Assembly (NCBI RefSeq): GCF_034087045.1
Contig: NZ_CP139247.1
Span: forward strand, 5,420,001 to 5,484,000
Direction: 5' to 3'
Length of the DNA stretch: 64,000 bases
Source of the DNA: Chitinophaga sancti
Lineage (GTDB): Bacteria; Bacteroidota; Bacteroidia; Chitinophagales; Chitinophagaceae
Shown: piece after piece, positions 41,188 to 53,023 of the stretch
How the letters are laid out: every line of letters begins with the position of its first letter
Position numbering within the stretch: the stretch's first letter is position 1
Notes under the pieces: generated by a model
Told to the model about the DNA's origin: nothing
What the model saw: only the letters and a program-made list of their open reading frames with translations
Database searches by the model: none
Position numbers and translations under genes: made by a program

Positions 41188-41891
41188 GAAAAACCATGGC
41201 CCTGCTGGAACAGGCAGGCTTACCTTATTGCTATTCTACCAAATCGGAAATCGACATGCCATCGCAGACTTATGGCACATACAGGCATGGAGCACTCACC
41301 CCTGCTGCACTACAGGCTTTCTGTAAAGATCAGGGGGTACGTGTAATAGTTCATGCCAGTCATCCGTTTGCAACCGTATTACACCAGGCAATTGCGGAAG
41401 CAGGCTTGCCTGTTTTACGCTTTGAAAGAGAATATCCGGCACGTACAGTACATCCGCTGGTGAATTACTTTGAAAGTTATGATGCAGCAATGGACTATTT
41501 GTCCGTACATCCTGTAAAAAAGCTATTAGCCTTAACTGGTGTACAGACAATCCGTCAACTAACCAGGTATTGGCAGCATAATGAAACAGTTTTCAGGATC
41601 CTGCCAAGGGATAGTTCATTGGAACAGGCATTGGCAGCAGGTTTTCCAAAAGAAAAACTGATCATGGAAATGCCGGGCAATGAAGCGGCACTGATTGCTT
41701 TGCACAACATTACAGGTATACTGACAAAAGAAAGTGGTGAATCAGGTTTATTATCTGTCAAGATCAATGAAGCACTGGCAGCTAACATTCCCATTTTTAT
41801 CATTTCCAGGCCTGTTATGCCGGCAGGGTTTATATCCGTAAAAGAAGATGATTTATTAGATCATTTAAAAGTTTATGTGGCATGTCTCTAA
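41154..41891 (+). CDS. cobK/cbiJ: precorrin-6A/cobalt-precorrin-6A reductase
   Basis: 245 residues. N-terminal ILVFGGTTEGRKTMALLEQA is the typical start of CobK/CbiJ; then ICHASHPFATVLHQ-like VIVHASHPFATVLHQAIAEA, LRFEREYPART, and ALTGVQTIRQLTRYW. It reduces the macrocycle with NAD(P)H. A partial copy of its first 20 bp lies 67 bp upstream with an ATG but is not needed. It overlaps cbiD by 10 bp. Confidence 0.9.
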   Translation: MILVFGGTTEGRKTMALLEQAGLPYCYSTKSEIDMPSQTYGTYRHGALTPAALQAFCKDQGVRVIVHASHPFATVLHQAIAEAGLPVLRFEREYPARTVHPLVNYFESYDAAMDYLSVHPVKKLLALTGVQTIRQLTRYWQHNETVFRILPRDSSLEQALAAGFPKEKLIMEMPGNEAALIALHNITGILTKESGESGLLSVKINEALAANIPIFIISRPVMPAGFISVKEDDLLDHLKVYVACL

Positions 41892-42938
41892 GAACAGGAT
41901 ATACCACCGGCGCCTGTGCAACTGCCTGTACCAAGGCAGCCCTGATAGCCCTGTTGACTCAGGCTCCTGTTGAAGAAATTGAGATCACATTACCACTCGG
42001 TCAAAAGGTATTATTCAAAGTAACCTGTTCATTTAATAATTTAAGTGCAACCTGCACCACGATCAAAGACGGTGGCGATGATCCGGATGCAACACATGGA
42101 GCCACCATCGGAAGCAGGGTTTCATTAAATACAGGAGATGATATTGTTTTTCTCAGAGGCGAAGGTGTAGGTGTAGTCACATTACCCGGCCTGGCCATTG
42201 GAGTAGGCGAGCCTGCGATCAATCCCGTTCCAAGAAAAATGATGCGCGATGCAGTGAATTTTATCCGGCATCAGTACCAGCTTACACAAGGTGTAGACAT
42301 ACAGGTGTTCGTAGTGAATGGAGAAGAGATCGCAAAGAAGACGTTGAATGCACGTATCGGTATTCTTGGTGGTATATCAATATTAGGTACCACTGGCATT
42401 GTAAAACCATTCAGTGCCTCTGCTTATATTGCCAGTATTACACAGGGCATTGATGTATCGATTGCTAATGGTTGCGATACCGTCGTGATCAATTCAGGCG
42501 GTCGGTCTGAAAATATATTAAGAAAGCGCTTCGCGCTTCTGCCGGAATTTGCCTTTGTGCAATATGGTAACTGGATTGGTGAAACATTGGATAAAATAAA
42601 AAACGACTCCCCTGCGGAAAGTGAAAATGGGTATTATGCTGGGCAAGGCCTGCAAACTGGCACAGGGAGAGCTGGACACACATAGTGGTAAATCCAGCTG
42701 GGATAAACAATTCATTTATGAACTGGCTATGGGTTGCGGGTATCCTCCGGAACAATGTCAGCCCATTCTGGATCTGAATCTGGCACGCAGACTGACGGAA
42801 TTGTTTCCTTTTAATGCAGAAGAGGCTTTCTACAAAGCATTGGCAGCACGCTGCTATGCGGTATGTAAAGCGATCATCCCTGCTGTAAGACTGGAAATAT
42901 TATTGATTGATGCGAATGACAATATAATTAGCTGGTAG
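41882..42938 (+). CDS. cbiD: cobalt-precorrin-5B C1-methyltransferase, reading frame interrupted
   Basis: The first part (41882-42685) reads MSLRTGYTTGACATACTKAA, IKDGGDDPDATHGA, GGISILGTTGIVKPFS and FVQYGNWIGETLDK in frame 2, clear CbiD. The family's conserved next block, VKMGIMLGKACKLAQGELDT, is in frame 0 and runs to a stop at 42936-42938. A +1 shift (one base too many) between 42595 and 42620 is needed; the A6 tract at 42598-42603 or the C4 at 42609-42612 are the likely spots. The joined product would have about 352 residues, normal for CbiD. Either a real frameshift mutation, recoding/slippage or a sequencing error. CbiD is needed in the anaerobic pathway. Confidence 0.88.
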
Positions 42939-43251
42939 TGATGATTGGAAATTTTGTTATTGATGCATATGAAAATTTAATTGCCTGCCAGCGAGGCTTG
43001 GAAATATTATTGATTGATGCATATGATAATATAATTAGCTGGTAGTGATGATTGGAAATTTTGTTGATTGATGCATATGAAAATTTAATTTCCTGCCAGC
43101 GAGGTTTTGAAATACTATTGATTGATGCGAATGACAATATAATTAGCTGGTAGTGATGATTGGAAATTTTGTTGATTGATGCATATGAAAATTTAATTGC
43201 CTGCCAGCGAGGTTTTGAAATACTATTGATTGATGCGAATGACAATATAAT
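42892..43251 (+). repeat. tandem repeat (107-108 bp period, 54-bp subrepeat) made from the cbiD tail
   Basis: Units begin at 42892, 42999, 43107 and 43215 and each consists of two diverged 53-54 bp halves (one with GGAAATATTATTGATTGATG, one with GGAAATTTTGTTGATTGATG). The first copy is the coding end of cbiD; the last runs to the ATG of the next gene at 43252. 54 is a multiple of 3, so the antisense strand shows a spurious 18-residue periodic reading frame. Confidence 0.9.
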
Positions 43252-43947
43252 ATGATTGGATTTTTATTAACAGATTCTATTTTATTAGGCGTACAACATT
43301 CTTTTGAACCGGACCATATGGCCGCCGTATCAGTATTGGCATCTGAAAAAGCGAACAACAAACTAAGTCTCCGCAAACTCATCTGGCGATCTTCCCAATG
43401 GGCATTAGGTCACTCCGTTTCTTTGATCCTCTTCAGCTTTTTCGCTTTATTATTGAAATCGGCTTTGCCTGTGAATATATCCGCCTATGCTGAAATGGCG
43501 GTAGGCCCCGTCATGATATGGCTGGGAATTTCCGCCATCCGCCGCAACCACCAGTTGAAAAAACTGATGGCTACCCACAAGGAATTTGCAGCGCACGACC
43601 ACCTGAACAATGCCCTGCACATCCATGGCAAACAAGGGCAGGAAATCGCCATGAATCCCCTGAGCCGTAGCTTTTGGGTAGGCATGCTTCATGGCCTGGC
43701 AGGTACAGGCGGCGCCTGTGCCATCGCCCTTATACTGGCATCAAAAGATGCAGGTACGGCCATGTGGATTATCGTATTGCAAAGTTTGGGGATCGTTATT
43801 GCCATGACCACTTATAGTTGTGTACTGGCATTTTCCGTATCCCGTTTTATTGAAAGAAATCAGGTGGCGTTCAAATCAATGAACGCCATCGTCGGCCTCT
43901 TCTCAATTGGAGTAGGCTGTGTATGGGTATATAATTGTTTTGTATGA
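43252..43947 (+). CDS. second nickel/cobalt permease-like membrane protein (UreH/NiCoT type)
   Basis: 231 residues with about six helices. The N-terminal GVQHSFEPDHMAAVSVLAS is a variant of the H-x4-DH metal motif; another histidine cluster is in AAHDHLNNALHIHGKQ in the central loop, and the second half has GMLHGLAGTGGACAIALILA typical of UreH-type transporters. It is less similar to classical NiCoT than the permease at 33481 and probably a second cobalt importer, but an exporter cannot be excluded. It ends in a 13-bp overlap with the chelatase gene. Confidence 0.75.
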   Translation: MIGFLLTDSILLGVQHSFEPDHMAAVSVLASEKANNKLSLRKLIWRSSQWALGHSVSLILFSFFALLLKSALPVNISAYAEMAVGPVMIWLGISAIRRNHQLKKLMATHKEFAAHDHLNNALHIHGKQGQEIAMNPLSRSFWVGMLHGLAGTGGACAIALILASKDAGTAMWIIVLQSLGIVIAMTTYSCVLAFSVSRFIERNQVAFKSMNAIVGLFSIGVGCVWVYNCFV

Positions 43948-44867
43948 TCACGTATCCTTTTACTGCCATTTGCGGACAGGAAGAATTTAAACTAGCGCTG
44001 ACACTGTGTATGATCGATCCCGGATTGGGAGGCGTACTGGCACTGGGTGACAAAGGCACTGGTAAAACCACCACTGTAAGAGGGCTAAGTCATCTCCTGC
44101 AGGATATTCCTTTTGTAAACCTGCCAATAGGTGCAACAGAAGATCGTGTGCTGGGCAATGTAAAATTGGATGTGCTCCTGAACGAAAAGCGGCTGGAAAT
44201 ACAACCCGGTTTGCTGGCAGCAGCACATCATGGTATTCTCTATATAGACGAAATAAACCTCCTGAGTGATTATCTCATGGATGTATTACTGGATGCGGCG
44301 GCAAGCGGTGGCTATTATCTGGAAAGAGATACCATCTCCCAATGGATGGAAAGCCGCTTTTGCCTGGTAGGCACGATGAACCCGGAAGAAGGGAATCTGC
44401 GTCCGCAGTTGTTAGATCGCTTTGGATTAAGTGTACATATCAGTACACCTACAGATAAAGCGCTGCGCATGGAGATTGTACAGCGCAGGATAGCTTTTGA
44501 TACAGACGCAGCAAAGTTTATTAAAAAATATAGTGACCATGAAAAGATGCTTGAAGCGCAGATCGTAGCTGCTCAGAATTTTTTACCCGCGGTTACGATT
44601 CCAACAAAGACCTATGATGTAGTCACTGACCTTTGTATCCGGCACCAGGTGGAAGGGATGCGTGCAGATATATTATTGATGAAAGCAGCCAGGGCACATG
44701 CCGCGTTTCATGGACAAAATACTATAAGGGAAGAAGATGTGCATGTAGTTCAAAACTTTGTCCTCTCCCACCGTTCACGTCAAACACCGCCGCCTCAAAG
44801 CTCTTCCCGCGAAAGCAAGCCTTCGGGCGATAAGGAGGGGGAGCCGAAAAAGGTCAGAACGATTTAA
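43935..44867 (+). CDS. chlI-like: cobalt chelatase AAA+ subunit (ChlI/BchI-like), frame-0 product
   Basis: 310 residues. Walker A GDKGTGKTTTVRGL, Walker B GILYIDEINLL with YLMDVLLDAAASGG, sensor 1 LVGTMNPEEGNLRPQLLDRF, sensor 2 GMRADILLMKAARAHAAFHG, as in Mg-chelatase subunit I. The C-terminal tail after about 290 is Ser/Pro/Lys-rich and ends at the TAA 44865-44867, 13 bases after a -1 slippery site. The same nucleotides encode the N-terminal half of the ChlD-like long product. With CobN (49280) it should form the ATP-driven cobalt chelatase. Confidence 0.88.
   Translation: MFCMITYPFTAICGQEEFKLALTLCMIDPGLGGVLALGDKGTGKTTTVRGLSHLLQDIPFVNLPIGATEDRVLGNVKLDVLLNEKRLEIQPGLLAAAHHGILYIDEINLLSDYLMDVLLDAAASGGYYLERDTISQWMESRFCLVGTMNPEEGNLRPQLLDRFGLSVHISTPTDKALRMEIVQRRIAFDTDAAKFIKKYSDHEKMLEAQIVAAQNFLPAVTIPTKTYDVVTDLCIRHQVEGMRADILLMKAARAHAAFHGQNTIREEDVHVVQNFVLSHRSRQTPPPQSSSRESKPSGDKEGEPKKVRTI
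44832..44852 (+). promoter_or_regulatory. putative programmed -1 frameshift signal in the chelatase gene
   Basis: AAGGAGG at 44832-44838, a strong SD-like sequence in a genome with weak SDs, lies about 8 nt before the slippery A-A-A-A-A-G at 44847-44852 (frame-0 codons AAA AAG). A -1 slip continues as GGT CAG AAC and runs through to 45550. The layout resembles the E. coli dnaX signal; a clear downstream hairpin was not identified. Confidence 0.7.
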
Positions 44868-45550
44868 ATAATTACCTTTTACAGGCAGCTGGCACTGAAA
44901 AGAGGTTAAATCTCAAAGGTGGGCCGAAAGGCCGTAAAAAGGGCCTGCCAATGCCTGTAATGACCACTCCCGTTATCGGCAATGATCATCAGACACGCGA
45001 TCTGCTCGGCACAGTAAAAAATTACTTACTCACCGGCCAGCCTGAAATAAAATACCAGCGTAAATCTTCAAAAGCTGCCCTGTCTTTGTTATTTTTAATT
45101 GACAGCAGCGGCTCAATGATCAAAGACAGGCAGATCGCTTATATTAAGGGAGTCATTGCTCAAACTATTGCGCAGCATCAACACAAACGGCTGCGCTATG
45201 GCGCAGTTGCCCTTGCACAGGGCGATGCACAACTGGTATCACATTATACAACAGACACGACCAGTTTTATCGAAAGGATCGCCCAATTGCGGTCAGGCGG
45301 CAAGACCAATCTGAAAGCAGGGTTGCAACTTATACAACAAATGAAAACATCCGACAGGACACAACTTTACATCTTCACAGATGGGAAGATCAATACCGGC
45401 GGTAGTTTGCAGGACGCGGCCCTTTATTTCAAACAACACCTCCGGACTTTGTCTGCAACCACTGTCGTTAACATTGAAAGTGGTTTTGTGAAACTGGGCA
45501 GGGCGGCCGAGCTGGCAAAAGGAATTGGTGCTACTTACTTAAACTTATAA
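44852..45550 (+). CDS. chlD-like: ChlD-like VWA part, read in the -1 frame after the AAA+ domain
   Basis: The -1 frame is open from 44839 to the stop at 45550. It begins GQNDLNNYLLQAAGTEKR, passes a basic linker LKGGPKGRKKGLPM and ends in a von Willebrand A domain with the MIDAS motif LIDSSGSM, the TNLKAGL loop and FTDGKINTGG. A frame-shifted product from 43935 would have 538 residues, AAA+ plus linker plus VWA, the ChlD/BchD layout. An internal ATG at 44951 could also start a 199-residue VWA protein, but the conserved-looking basic linker before it favours the fused product. Ends 3 bp before cobU. Confidence 0.82.
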   Translation, partial: GQNDLNNYLLQAAGTEKRLNLKGGPKGRKKGLPMPVMTTPVIGNDHQTRDLLGTVKNYLLTGQPEIKYQRKSSKAALSLLFLIDSSGSMIKDRQIAYIKGVIAQTIAQHQHKRLRYGAVALAQGDAQLVSHYTTDTTSFIERIAQLRSGGKTNLKAGLQLIQQMKTSDRTQLYIFTDGKINTGGSLQDAALYFKQHLRTLSATTVVNIESGFVKLGRAAELAKGIGATYLNL

Positions 45551-49279: not shown

Positions 49280-52200
49280 CTACTCCATATCCACAAACAT
49301 ACTTTGCAGCTTCTCCAGCGTCTCCGGTTTTGGCGCCTGCCACATTCCCCGCTGAATAGCTTCCAACATACGTTCTGTCATATCCTTCAATGCCCACGGA
49401 TTTGCCTGTTCGATGAACTGACGATTCTCTTCATTGAACAGGTACTCCTGGGTAATCCCTTCATACATAAAATCATCTACCATATTAGTCGTTGCATCAT
49501 AAGCAAATAGATAATCCATTGTTGCCGCCATCTCAAATGCCCCCTTATAACCATGTCGCTTCACACCAGCAATCCACTTCGGATTCACCACCCTTGAACG
49601 ATATACTTTCAGCAACTCTTCTTTTAAACTCTTTATCCGCGGCGTCTCCGGACGTGCATGGTCGCCAAAATAAATAGACGGCTGCTCTCCTTTGATAGTT
49701 TCCACCGCATTTGCTAAACCACCCTGGAATTGGTAATAATCATCCGAATCGAGAATATCATGTTCCCGGTTATCCTGGTTATGCATTACGATTTGCAGAT
49801 CAGATAAACGCTTTTCAAATACCTCATGCGCAGATTCACCTGTGCGGTCCGCACCATAAGCATACCCACTCCAATTGATATATACTTTAGCAAGATCTTC
49901 CCTCGTCTGCCAGTTCTTTTCATCTATCACTGCCTGTAACCCTGCGCCATAAGCACCTGGCTTGGAACCAAAAACCCTGAATAGAGATCTTTTATGTGCC
50001 CTGGTTTCATCCAATCCTTTATTGAGCCATTCCTGCTTTTCTGCGAGGTAGCGCTTGCGGATAGGATTCTGTTCCAACGGTTCATCCAGTAAAGCCACTT
50101 TTTCTACCACCGCATTCAGCAAAGAAATTACATCCGGAAATGCATCCCTGAAAAACCCTGAAATACGTAGCATAACATCGATGCGTGGCCTTCTCAATTG
50201 AATAAGCGGAATGATCTCAAAATCAGACACCCGCCTGTTAGCCGCCTGCCATACGGGTTGTACTCCCATAAGGGCCAGTGCCTGTGCGATGTCATCTCCA
50301 CCTGTACGCATAGTACTGGTACCCCATACTGACAACCCTATAGATTCAGGATAATCCCCCTGCTCCTGCATGTAACGATTGATGATAAGGTTCGCGCTTT
50401 TGACCCCCAGGCTGTAAGCGGCCTGTGTGGGTATAGCGCGCACATCTACAGAATAGAAGTTTCTCCCTGTAGGCAAAACATCCATACGACCACGTGTAGG
50501 TGCACCGGAGCTACCACTGGGAACATAGCCAGCGTCTAAACCGTGTAAAAGGTGAGTGATTTCCTCCTTAGTGCGTTGAATCTTTGGTAAAGTATGCGTA
50601 AAGATATTTTCACAATATGCTTTGGTCGCCGGTAGATGGAAGTCTTCGCCTTGTAGGATATGATGACCACTCAGCATACGCTCACCTTTCAAAAGCCCCT
50701 CTCCATGCAACATCTCCATTCCCTTCAGCATCTCTTTCACAATCTCCTCCAACACAGCCACCGCATCCCCCCTGTTCCTACATCCCCTAAATAACACATG
50801 CGCACTTTCAAAAGCCACCTCATAATCCCCCCCTAAAGGATCAAATCCTAACCCCATCTCCTCTGCCGGCACCTGCGTAATCCCCTTCTGCCCCGCCACT
50901 GGCACCCTATGCAATGCTATCAGCAAATCAATCAACTGCTCATCCTCCGGCGCCTTTCCCAGAATATGCAACCCATCACGGATCTGCGCCTCTTTCAACT
51001 CACACAAATACCCATCCAGCTTCAACAACAACGTATCCATATCAGCAACGGCTGCCTGCAGATCTGTTTCCAGATCCGCCTCTTTCACCAACTGTGTGAT
51101 CTGCGCACGAATCACCGCTGTACGCTTCGGATCCACACTAAACGCCTCGTAATATTCATCAATCAAATGTTCCAGCTTAGTCAACGTACCATAATTCTCA
51201 GCTCTCGTCATAGGCGGAATCAGGTGATCAATTATAATAGCATGTGTCCTGCGCTTCGCCTGCGTTCCTTCCCCCGGATCATTCACTATGAACGGATAGA
51301 AATGCGGGACAGGACTTAACAACACAGCAGGGAAACAACTCTCCTTACTCAATGCCACACTCTTCCCCGGCAACCATTCCAGGTTTCCATGCTTGCCACA
51401 ATGAATCAAAGCATCTGCTTTGAACACCTCATTCACCCAACAGTAATAAGCAAGATATCTATAAGTAGGCGGTAAATCCGGCGAGTGGTAAATAGCCTTC
51501 TCATCCTGGTTATAACCACGTGCAGGCTGAATACTCACGAAGATATTCCCCAACAAACACCCGGGAATTATAAAATCCTCTTCCTGTGAAGGCCCCCATT
51601 GCTCAAGGATCTTCTCTTTAAGCAATGGTGCTAACTGCTCAAAATATTCCTGGAACCGATCCTTCTCGATACTAATCTGGTAAGGACGATACAACGTAGT
51701 ATCCGTATCATTCGTCACATAATGCGTGATGAGTGTGATTAACTCCCCGCTGGTAGCTGGAATATAATCTCCTGTATCATACCCTGCTGTTTTCAATGCC
51801 TGCAGAATTTCCACAATACTCGCAGGTGTATCTAATCCTACCCCATTTGCCAAACGGCTATCCTTATTGGGATAGTTCGGCATGATAAGAGCAATATGTT
51901 TATCTTTTTGCTTTTTCTTCCCAAGCTGTATCCAGTTATTTGCAAAAGCCACCACAAAATCACAACCCTCTTCATGCGTACTATATTGCAGAATATCTGA
52001 ATCTGTCAGCGCATCCTTGCCCACAGAAGATTTAAAAGAAATCGCCGTCGTAATAATACGACCATCTATCTCCGGCAATGCAATATTCATCGCCACATCT
52101 ACTGGTGTCAGACCAAATAGGTTCTGCTCCCATACCTCTTTGGTACAGGCAGCAAAGATGCCCTGTATAACAGGTACATCAAGATTATCAAATAAGAAAC

Positions 52201-53023
52201 TTTCATCCTTATCCATAGACTTGATTGAAAAGCTGGTCGTGTTGATCAACACTTTTACCTTTCCTTTCAATAAAGATTCAAGTTCCTGCAAACTATGCTG
52301 ATCACGAAGATTACTCACAAAAGCAATTACAGGTTTCAGTCCTTTCACCTCCAGCGCCTTTATCAAATAATTCACCGGCGCCAGGTTATCAGCCAGGTAA
52401 TGCGTTTGGTAAACAAGGATGGCTACATCTGCTATATAATCCTCCGGCGGTATCATTCCCTTCTCAGGATGAAATAAAAACAGGTCCGCAATTTTCTGAG
52501 GGGGAGCGAATTGTAAATCTGTATCAAAGCAATGATGAAATATATAAGCCAACCCATTCTTCAGGTTATGCTTTCCCCCGGCACAACAGTATTTCCATAG
52601 GGTATCAGCAATCTTCACATCCACCGTGGAATTATTCAGCAATTCTACATCCGGCGCGTCATATCCCGGCAGGAAGAGTACGGGAATATTTTGCTGTTCA
52701 CAGGCAATGCTGATAGCTTCGAACAAATACGGGTAGTAATTCCTGCCACCTAACAGGCGACAGATCACCAGCTTTGAATGGCTGATCACTTCCTCTACAT
52801 ATTTATCGATGGTCAGTTCCTGCTTCAGGTATACCAGGTTGGCAATTCGCAGGGTCGGGAGCTGTGGGTGGGTTTGGTGTAACTCCCTGTAAGCATTGTT
52901 CAGTGAATGGATCTCCGTATCGGCAGCAGAGAGGAATACGACGTCTCCTATAGATTGCTGTATGTGGAAGACCCCATCCCCGTTGGGATTCCACCCACCG
53001 GGGATTGTTGGGATCAGGTGCAT
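49280..53023 (-). CDS. cobN: cobaltochelatase large subunit CobN
   Basis: 1247 residues, usual size. HCGKHGNLEWLPGKSVALS, VNDPGEGTQAKRRTHAIIID, LIDEYYEAFSVDPKR, SGSSGAPTRGRMDVLPTGRN, GLSVWGTSTMRTGGDDIAQA and HGYKGAFEMAATMDYLFAYD are CobN/ChlH-type motifs in the right order. It holds the tetrapyrrole during ATP-driven metal insertion by the AAA+/VWA subunits encoded at 43935-45550. Downstream of cobW by 1 bp. Its coexistence with CbiX is notable because CobN acts late in the aerobic route. Confidence 0.95.
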   Translation of the reverse strand: MHLIPTIPGGWNPNGDGVFHIQQSIGDVVFLSAADTEIHSLNNAYRELHQTHPQLPTLRIANLVYLKQELTIDKYVEEVISHSKLVICRLLGGRNYYPYLFEAISIACEQQNIPVLFLPGYDAPDVELLNNSTVDVKIADTLWKYCCAGGKHNLKNGLAYIFHHCFDTDLQFAPPQKIADLFLFHPEKGMIPPEDYIADVAILVYQTHYLADNLAPVNYLIKALEVKGLKPVIAFVSNLRDQHSLQELESLLKGKVKVLINTTSFSIKSMDKDESFLFDNLDVPVIQGIFAACTKEVWEQNLFGLTPVDVAMNIALPEIDGRIITTAISFKSSVGKDALTDSDILQYSTHEEGCDFVVAFANNWIQLGKKKQKDKHIALIMPNYPNKDSRLANGVGLDTPASIVEILQALKTAGYDTGDYIPATSGELITLITHYVTNDTDTTLYRPYQISIEKDRFQEYFEQLAPLLKEKILEQWGPSQEEDFIIPGCLLGNIFVSIQPARGYNQDEKAIYHSPDLPPTYRYLAYYCWVNEVFKADALIHCGKHGNLEWLPGKSVALSKESCFPAVLLSPVPHFYPFIVNDPGEGTQAKRRTHAIIIDHLIPPMTRAENYGTLTKLEHLIDEYYEAFSVDPKRTAVIRAQITQLVKEADLETDLQAAVADMDTLLLKLDGYLCELKEAQIRDGLHILGKAPEDEQLIDLLIALHRVPVAGQKGITQVPAEEMGLGFDPLGGDYEVAFESAHVLFRGCRNRGDAVAVLEEIVKEMLKGMEMLHGEGLLKGERMLSGHHILQGEDFHLPATKAYCENIFTHTLPKIQRTKEEITHLLHGLDAGYVPSGSSGAPTRGRMDVLPTGRNFYSVDVRAIPTQAAYSLGVKSANLIINRYMQEQGDYPESIGLSVWGTSTMRTGGDDIAQALALMGVQPVWQAANRRVSDFEIIPLIQLRRPRIDVMLRISGFFRDAFPDVISLLNAVVEKVALLDEPLEQNPIRKRYLAEKQEWLNKGLDETRAHKRSLFRVFGSKPGAYGAGLQAVIDEKNWQTREDLAKVYINWSGYAYGADRTGESAHEVFEKRLSDLQIVMHNQDNREHDILDSDDYYQFQGGLANAVETIKGEQPSIYFGDHARPETPRIKSLKEELLKVYRSRVVNPKWIAGVKRHGYKGAFEMAATMDYLFAYDATTNMVDDFMYEGITQEYLFNEENRQFIEQANPWALKDMTERMLEAIQRGMWQAPKPETLEKLQSMFVDME

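Follow-up and report, generated by a model that had tools for sequence, protein, structure and literature searches.

A split chlD-like gene of Chitinophaga probably encodes two cobaltochelatase subunits through frameshifting at a Shine-Dalgarno-like motif

We analyzed a 64,000-nt stretch of the Chitinophaga sancti chromosome (the window; positions 5,420,001 to 5,484,000 of contig NZ_CP139247.1, assembly GCF_034087045.1, a genome of 8.32 Mb in one contig), in which a chlD-like gene at 43944-45550 is divided between a ChlI-like AAA+ frame and a VWA frame overlapping in the -1 register. An earlier note, made from the letters alone, had proposed that this one gene probably gives rise to a small and a medium chelatase subunit by frameshifting. 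The proposal is supported by the conservation of the split among relatives and by the protein-level conservation of the -1 linker, and we regard it as very probable that frameshifting of some kind expresses the long product. The best explanation, in which we place moderate confidence, is that the two subunits are produced from one gene via a forward shift at a conserved sequence composed of a Shine-Dalgarno (SD)-like element, a three-base spacer, and the codon pair NAN-NCG.

The coordinates and the -1 overlap of the two frames given in the earlier note were borne out by direct reading of the sequence. The AAA+ open reading frame (ORF), taken as 43935-44867, ends at a TAA codon (44865-44867), and the VWA frame extends without a stop from 44834 to a TAA ending at 45550, leaving an overlap at 44834-44867. 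The gene had been placed at 43935..45550, of which the end holds and the start is probably to be moved: the ATG at 43944 is likelier than the TTG at 43935, because it overlaps the stop of the upstream gene as ATGA. The zero-frame ORF contains a Walker A motif (GDKGTGKTT) and an AAA lid, and the solved structures nearest to its product are ChlI and BchI. The computed masses of the short product from this ATG and of the long reading, 34.1 and 58.7 kDa, respectively, agree with the 34- and 59-kDa products predicted earlier. The joined 536-aa reading scored 443 bits against TIGR02442 (putative cobaltochelatase), below the curated cut-off of 779, and three continuous-frame relatives from Bacteroidota, at 441-452 bits, likewise fell below it.

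A search of 79 Chitinophaga genomes yielded 26 strong orthologues (60-100% identity, E ≤ 4.7e-115), the other matches being 24-34% identical with E values of at least 3e-7. The VWA part lies at -1 relative to the AAA+ part in 25 of the 26. In the remaining one, L023 (loci are numbered with the prefix L), the -1 linker is present and a second break occurs about 125 nt past the zero-frame stop, perhaps owing to an assembly error or to decay of the gene. Since 25 of the 26 orthologues share it, the frame split is not a sequencing error.

Among the best 25 genome-contig loci (L036-L060), three were from Chitinophaga and 22 from other bacteria, including Flavobacterium, Aquimarina, Flammeovirga, Pedobacter and Dyadobacter. 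Orthologues with a single continuous frame, which the earlier note had named as speaking against frameshifting, were thus found outside the genus (21 of the 22), and they indicate that the split is lineage-specific rather than an artefact. L051, from a member of Cesiribacteraceae, shows the same split with the sequence AAGGAG AGC CAC ACG G, which may reflect horizontal transfer or an old shared signal. In a draw from the family, three of 394 genomes matched at 1e-20, all within the genus, with no further shifted orthologues. The order draw (298 genomes) gave the window's own locus and two matches of 41-42% identity with no VWA found beside those two, and the class draw gave the own locus and one of L118 and L119. 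In the phylum draw 92 of 395 genomes matched at 1e-40; the matches listed were mostly 33-47% identical, and two closer ones among them (57% and 54%; L118 and L119) are both continuous. The split state with this signal therefore looks lineage-specific, as judged from the sequences compared.

Comparison of the loci showed protein-level conservation of the -1 linker. Within the 28 codons that follow the zero-frame stop, the ratio of nonsynonymous to synonymous polymorphism (pN/pS; pooled within-group comparisons) was 0.23 in the -1 frame versus 1.06 and 1.52 in the other two frames, indicating purifying selection on this linker. This analysis and that of start codons covered 24 of the 26 genus loci, with L008 (a near-copy of L007) and L023 (second break) left out. 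Most of the 24 carry a block similar to L-Q-x-Y-L-[LF]-Q-A past the zero-frame stop, ahead of any shared start codon. The tail of the zero frame, KEG[DE][STP]..., likewise shows conservation. The conservation of both the linker and this tail suggests that the short and the long products both appear to be kept.

These data bear on two explanations that dispense with frameshifting. If the locus consisted of two overlapping genes, the VWA protein would be made by reinitiation or by internal initiation driven by AAGGAGG. The strength of the SD-like element is consistent with this, as are VWA parts that stand as proteins of their own (144-260 aa among 65 matches, in a search range of about 131-416 aa). 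We nevertheless consider it very improbable, as no ATG, GTG or TTG at a conserved place in the -1 frame is common to the 24 loci, the first one past the zero-frame stop being 79 codons away in L013 and 73 in L016; the window has its first -1-frame ATG at 44951, 84 nt beyond that stop. Reinitiation at a standard start was rejected on the basis of this long gap in L013. In addition, the -1 stretch that would be skipped is conserved as protein, and continuous-frame relatives encode the fused protein. A sequencing error or a pseudogene is still more improbable, to the point of being hardly credible. Such events do occur in the window strain, as shown by cbiD of the same operon (41882-42938), which is split into two frames; this break is a private mutation or a sequencing error, since cbiD is in a single frame in all 19 relatives where it was found upstream (L007-L025). 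In contrast to the cbiD break, which none of the 19 relatives has, the split of the chlD-like gene recurs in 25 of 26 assemblies, with a linker under purifying selection and conserved zero-frame tails.

At the junction of the split genes we found a common in-frame pattern, RRGGAR-N3-NAN-NCG. It was examined in 27 split genes, comprising the 26 genus loci (20 of clade A and six of clade B) and L051, and in 54 continuous-frame homologues, defined as loci in which a VWA match was detected in frame with the AAA+ part (only such loci were counted). The pattern was present in all 27 split genes and in none of the 54 homologues, with no further occurrence in 7,800 other codons of the 26 genus loci. 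The SD-like element proposed in the earlier note is thereby supported. In clade A, the two codons of this element are AAG and GAG in 20 of 20 loci, as compared with 33% and 25% over the remaining ORF sequence, and NCG, encoding Thr, Ser or Pro, is likewise found in 20 of 20, as compared with 26%. AGGAGG occurs just twice in the remaining 21,840 nt of these ORFs. When the 27 sequences were aligned and Met and Trp columns excluded, the third base was invariant in only two of 285 codon columns, namely the first SD codon (AAG or GGG) and NCG. In five orthologues (L007, L008, L010, L017 and L018), a -1 TGA overlaps the first two bases of the codon that follows the SD-like element with its spacer. 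This places the shift in these loci at or after that codon, and, because the -1 stop of these five lies downstream of the SD-like element, coding in the -1 frame is not the general cause of the invariance of the first SD codon. We judge it rather likely that the shift happens at the NAN_NCG codon pair.

According to the mechanism that we propose, ribosomes remaining in frame would make the ChlI-like ATPase of about 34 kDa, and a fraction of them would move at the junction into the -1 (= +2) frame to make a ChlD-like protein of about 59 kDa, composed of the same ATPase domain and the VWA domain. Judging from their families, both products may serve CobN in cobalt insertion. The shift would most likely take place with GAG in the peptidyl (P) site and the SD-like AAGGAG ending exactly 3 nt upstream, while a slow NCG codon (CCG) occupies the aminoacyl (A) site. 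The strained peptidyl-tRNA would then detach and resume forward, from GAG to GAA 5 nt on or, in the sister clade, over 2 nt from CAC to CAC. The layout of a six-nucleotide SD-like element, a three-nucleotide spacer and a P-site codon is that of prfB and is found in all 27 split genes; this agreement in spacing with the prfB site leads us to favour a forward shift at the NAN codon.

The capacity for such re-pairing was examined by asking, for each codon column of the 27 sequences, whether the same tRNA could read the codon at -1, +2 or +5. The GAN/CAC column allowed this in 26 of 27 sequences (19 by +5, as GAG..GAA or GAY..GAT, and seven by +2, as CACAC), and was the only one of 288 columns to reach at least 24 sequences, the mean over columns being 2.0 and the highest value elsewhere 22. 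Thus 26 of 27 DNA loci offer, as in bypassing, a take-off and a landing codon that a single tRNA could read. With regard to the A site, no Thr-CGU, Ser-CGA or Pro-CGG tRNA was seen in the tRNA set found or by pattern searches, of which the Pro search gave a single match that is not a tRNA. The tRNAs found for the NCG families were Thr UGU and GGU; Ser UGA, GGA and GCU; and Pro UGG and GGG, and C34 tRNAs do exist in the genome for Lys, Gln, Gly, Arg and Leu. The set contains 58 tRNAs from 150 scored of 358 candidates, with 50 loci scanned (L154-L157 and L159 lie inside others). We infer from this that NCG may be a slow codon. In synthetic constructs, slow A-site codons together with matched codons favour hopping (PMC5009743). 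Forward re-pairing as described falls somewhat short of an even chance. Still more tentatively, we put forward that this chromosomal enzyme gene of bacteria would undergo a programmed and conserved forward shift, as a 5-nt GAN..GAN hop or, in the other clade, a +2 CAC-to-CAC slide. The drivers would be a tight, prfB-like SD contact and a sense codon lacking a matching tRNA, in a phylum in which SD sequences are normally ignored by the ribosomes.

Several observations weigh against this proposal. We arrived at the motif post hoc, from inspection of these sequences. The G in the third position of NCG is also the opening base of the first -1 codon, and its conservation may be due in part to -1-frame coding. 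The re-pairing scan was anchored on the motif itself, while the third-base count used the alignment instead, and L021 breaks the re-pairing rule (GAG to GAT). Tails of metagenomic proteins, available as protein only, were compared for 79 of 120 listed proteins, leaving out rows above 345 aa, rows after P0097, eight without the motif, and very short bodies. Sixty-two could fit re-pairing and one is undecided, but 16 misfit: 11 with K-E-[GE]-D-T-K and five others (D-T-V, D-T-E, D-P-A, Y-T-V and Y-S-E). Covariation between an E or D take-off and a K or I landing residue was discarded as support, since it was not significant and the traits change just three and two times on the protein tree. Ala-UGC and Ile-GAU are missing from the tRNA list, which is therefore incomplete. 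Outside the genus, the 25 best genome matches include a single split locus with DNA, L051. Folds of the 100 nt downstream beat shuffles at L051 (z -3.3), L028 (z -2.4) and the window (z -2.0). Finally, Bacteroidota ribosomes normally hide the anti-SD (PMC8710568), so that SD pairing here is an assumption.

The earlier note had placed the slip at AAAAAG, in a dnaX-like signal. Both strings that it named are present (AAGGAGG at 44832-44838, AAAAAG at 44847-44852), and the zero-frame stop begins 13 bases past the last base of the hexamer. In this classical -1 frameshift, like that of E. coli dnaX, tRNA-Lys in the P site would slip from AAG to AAA, aided by the SD-like element 8 nt upstream, and the long product would contain the junction peptide KEGEPKKGQNDL. 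The re-pairing would be perfect in the window, L007, L008 and L010, poly-A shift sites are used by chelatase genes elsewhere (PMC3711429), and the 100 nt downstream of the window's junction fold somewhat better than shuffles. We consider this reading unlikely, since these four loci are the only ones of the 26 orthologues with an in-frame AAA AAG. L009, whose AAA+ protein is 82% identical to that of the window, has AAA AGG instead, and L018 retains no cognate -1 re-pairing after its -1 TGA. The window heptamer is G_AAA_AAG rather than A_AAA_AAG, which is found in the overlap of none of the 26. The genome also has tRNA-Lys(CUU), which should hold AAG firmly; a second lysine tRNA, as said of Thermus, should pair tightly with AAG (PMC5009743). 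Over the 17 of 27 loci folded against shuffles, as structures free of pseudoknots, no recurrent downstream stem was seen (60-nt z -2.4 to +1.0, window -1.4), and such a stem is not favoured as a shared signal. The alignment of orthologues suggested in the earlier note thus shows the SD-like element and both frames to be conserved and the slippery hexamer not, and AAAAAG was rejected as the general slip signal.

Also unlikely, to a similar degree, is a +2-frame shift at NAN_NCG without re-pairing, in which, by a Ty3-like occlusion, the incoming tRNA would read from the G of NCG (GAA, GAT or GGN) and NC would be skipped. This G is invariant in all 27 split genes and always begins GAN or GGN, the protein tails that misfit re-pairing would be covered as well, and Ty3-type shifting without realistic re-pairing has been described (PMC5009743). 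Occlusion gives no account, however, of the forward re-pairing that the P-site codon allows in 26 of 27 loci, and the invariant G is accounted for by -1 coding as well. Two further candidates were dropped. A -1 slip from AAG to AAA at the SD codon is possible in 14 of 27 loci, would be non-cognate in the window, L007-L010 and the six clade-B loci, and is also blocked by the -1 TGA in L017 and L018; a stop hop at AGC TG AGY is available in some relatives only.

A-rich sites do occur among homologues. The linkers of 23 continuous loci contain an SD-like string in seven and the full motif in none, and four of them (L044, L056, L118 and L119) carry an in-register A_AAA_AAR, where a -1 slip could lead to early termination and, as in dnaX, to a short product. 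Metagenomic ChlI-like proteins P0074, P0085, P0095, P0104-P0108, P0112-P0114 and P0116 (protein only) end soon after E-K-K-K or E-K-K-T-P runs. These tails would fit classical A-run sites, suggesting that both kinds of signal may exist among relatives.

The locus is a cobalamin operon with cbiE/cbiT, a cbiG-cobM/cbiF fusion, cbiD, a cobU-like gene scoring under its cut-off, cobT, cobS and an adenosyltransferase gene. The cobT and cobS of this operon encode the dimethylbenzimidazole phosphoribosyltransferase and cobalamin synthase, respectively. A 108-bp unit in 3.3 copies, apparently copied from the 3' end of cbiD, lies between cbiD and the next gene (42892-43251). The product of cobN (Table 1) is presumed to be the partner of both chelatase subunits. 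The earlier note saw no separate chlI in the locus, and our sequence search found none genome-wide: a protein search of the whole genome gave one other match, an AAA protein of 28% identity. A genome scan with PF01078 also detected two frames at 21 bits and a 515-aa frame at 317 bits, which from its size we take to be of the ComM/YifB type.

Table 1. Positions within the window of the junction elements, the two reading frames and cobN.
Feature	Coordinates	Strand	Basis or conservation
Zero-frame ORF, small ChlI-like AAA+ subunit (putative short product)	43944..44867	+	307 aa from ATG 43944
-1-frame ORF, linker and VWA domain (DSSGS), C-terminal part of the putative long ChlD-like product	44834..45550	+	pN/pS, sequence comparison
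SD-like element AAGGAG (AAGGAGG with the next base)	44832..44837	+	AAG GAG in 20/20 clade-A loci and L051; GGG GAR in six clade-B loci
Three-base spacer, GGG in the window	44838..44840	+	Varies: GGC, GGT, GGA, GAT, TAT, TCT, AGC
Proposed P-site (take-off) codon GAG	44841..44843	+	GAN or CAC in 27/27
Proposed slow A-site codon CCG	44844..44846	+	NCG in 27/27, residue T, S or P
Proposed landing codon GAA, 5 nt past GAG and matched by the same tRNA-Glu(UUC); reading would resume at AAA 44849	44846..44848	+	Re-pairing, tRNA set
AAAAAG hexamer, slip site of the earlier note	44847..44852	+	In-frame AAA AAG in 4/26 orthologues
cobN, large subunit of cobaltochelatase	49280..53023	-	TIGR02257, 1515 bits, cut-off 822

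Frameshifted chlD genes (fs-chlD) have reportedly been described by Antonov in 2013 and 2020 and by Kuznetsov in 2022. The Chitinophaga gene resembles them in having AAA+ and VWA parts in -1-related frames, an overlap conserved in 25 of 26 orthologues, with small and medium subunits presumably obtained from one gene, and in the presence of cobN with no separate small-subunit gene (chlI/cobS) found. Chelatase frameshifting is known in Pseudomonas, Burkholderia, Delftia, Herpetosiphon and methanogens, at A_AAA_AAR runs (A7-A11 in the sites tested) with potential downstream structure (PMC3711429, PMC5009743), and such poly-A sites gave 10%, 40% and 63% shift for A7, A9 and A11 in E. coli (PMC3711429). 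The Chitinophaga gene differs in having no A_AAA_AAR run in the overlap and no recurrent structure seen over 17 loci, with SD-N3-NAN-NCG instead. Chelatase frameshifting is also discussed in PMC9227772, in whose main text, as far as it was available, Bacteroidetes and Chitinophaga are unmentioned. Likewise, no report of an SD-N3-NAN-NCG signal was found in the excerpts available of the literature on chlD and on frameshifting in Bacteroidetes or Chitinophaga. Frameshift expression of chlD is known as a kind, and the shift signal in Chitinophaga looks different.

In its spacing, this signal matches that of prfB, the frameshift of which is present in 523 of 726 Bacteroidia and whose site in F. 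johnsoniae reads AGGAGG UAU CUU UGA C (PMC8710568). The two share the six-base SD-like element, the three-base spacer, the P-site codon, a presumed slow A-site codon and the bacterial class. They differ in that the A site would hold a sense codon, NCG, rather than a stop; in place of CUU UGA with +1 re-pairing there is NAN_NCG with a net shift of -1/+2, and two products would result rather than autoregulation. The E. coli dnaX gene likewise has an upstream SD-like stimulator and yields a short and a long product, but its A_AAA_AAG some 10 nt past the SD-like element has no counterpart in the 26 overlaps here, nor was a conserved 3' hairpin seen. With bypassing, as in T4 gene 60 and synthetic hops, the gene shares matched take-off and landing codons and a presumed slow A-site codon. 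It differs in a gap of 2 nt, or an overlapping CACAC, as compared with 50 nt, in being a conserved chromosomal enzyme gene, and in that the hop is predicted from sequence.

Taken together, these comparisons suggest that the two-in-one coding logic of the chelatase has been kept in these Chitinophaga soil bacteria, while the signal for the shift looks different from the poly-A sites. A forward shift, if that is what occurs and if mRNA-rRNA pairing drives it, would add to the few natural examples of short hopping. If true, the chlD-like gene would be one besides prfB in which ribosomes of Bacteroidota use an internal SD contact despite their hidden anti-SD, and B12 synthesis could be linked through this signal to the state of the contact.

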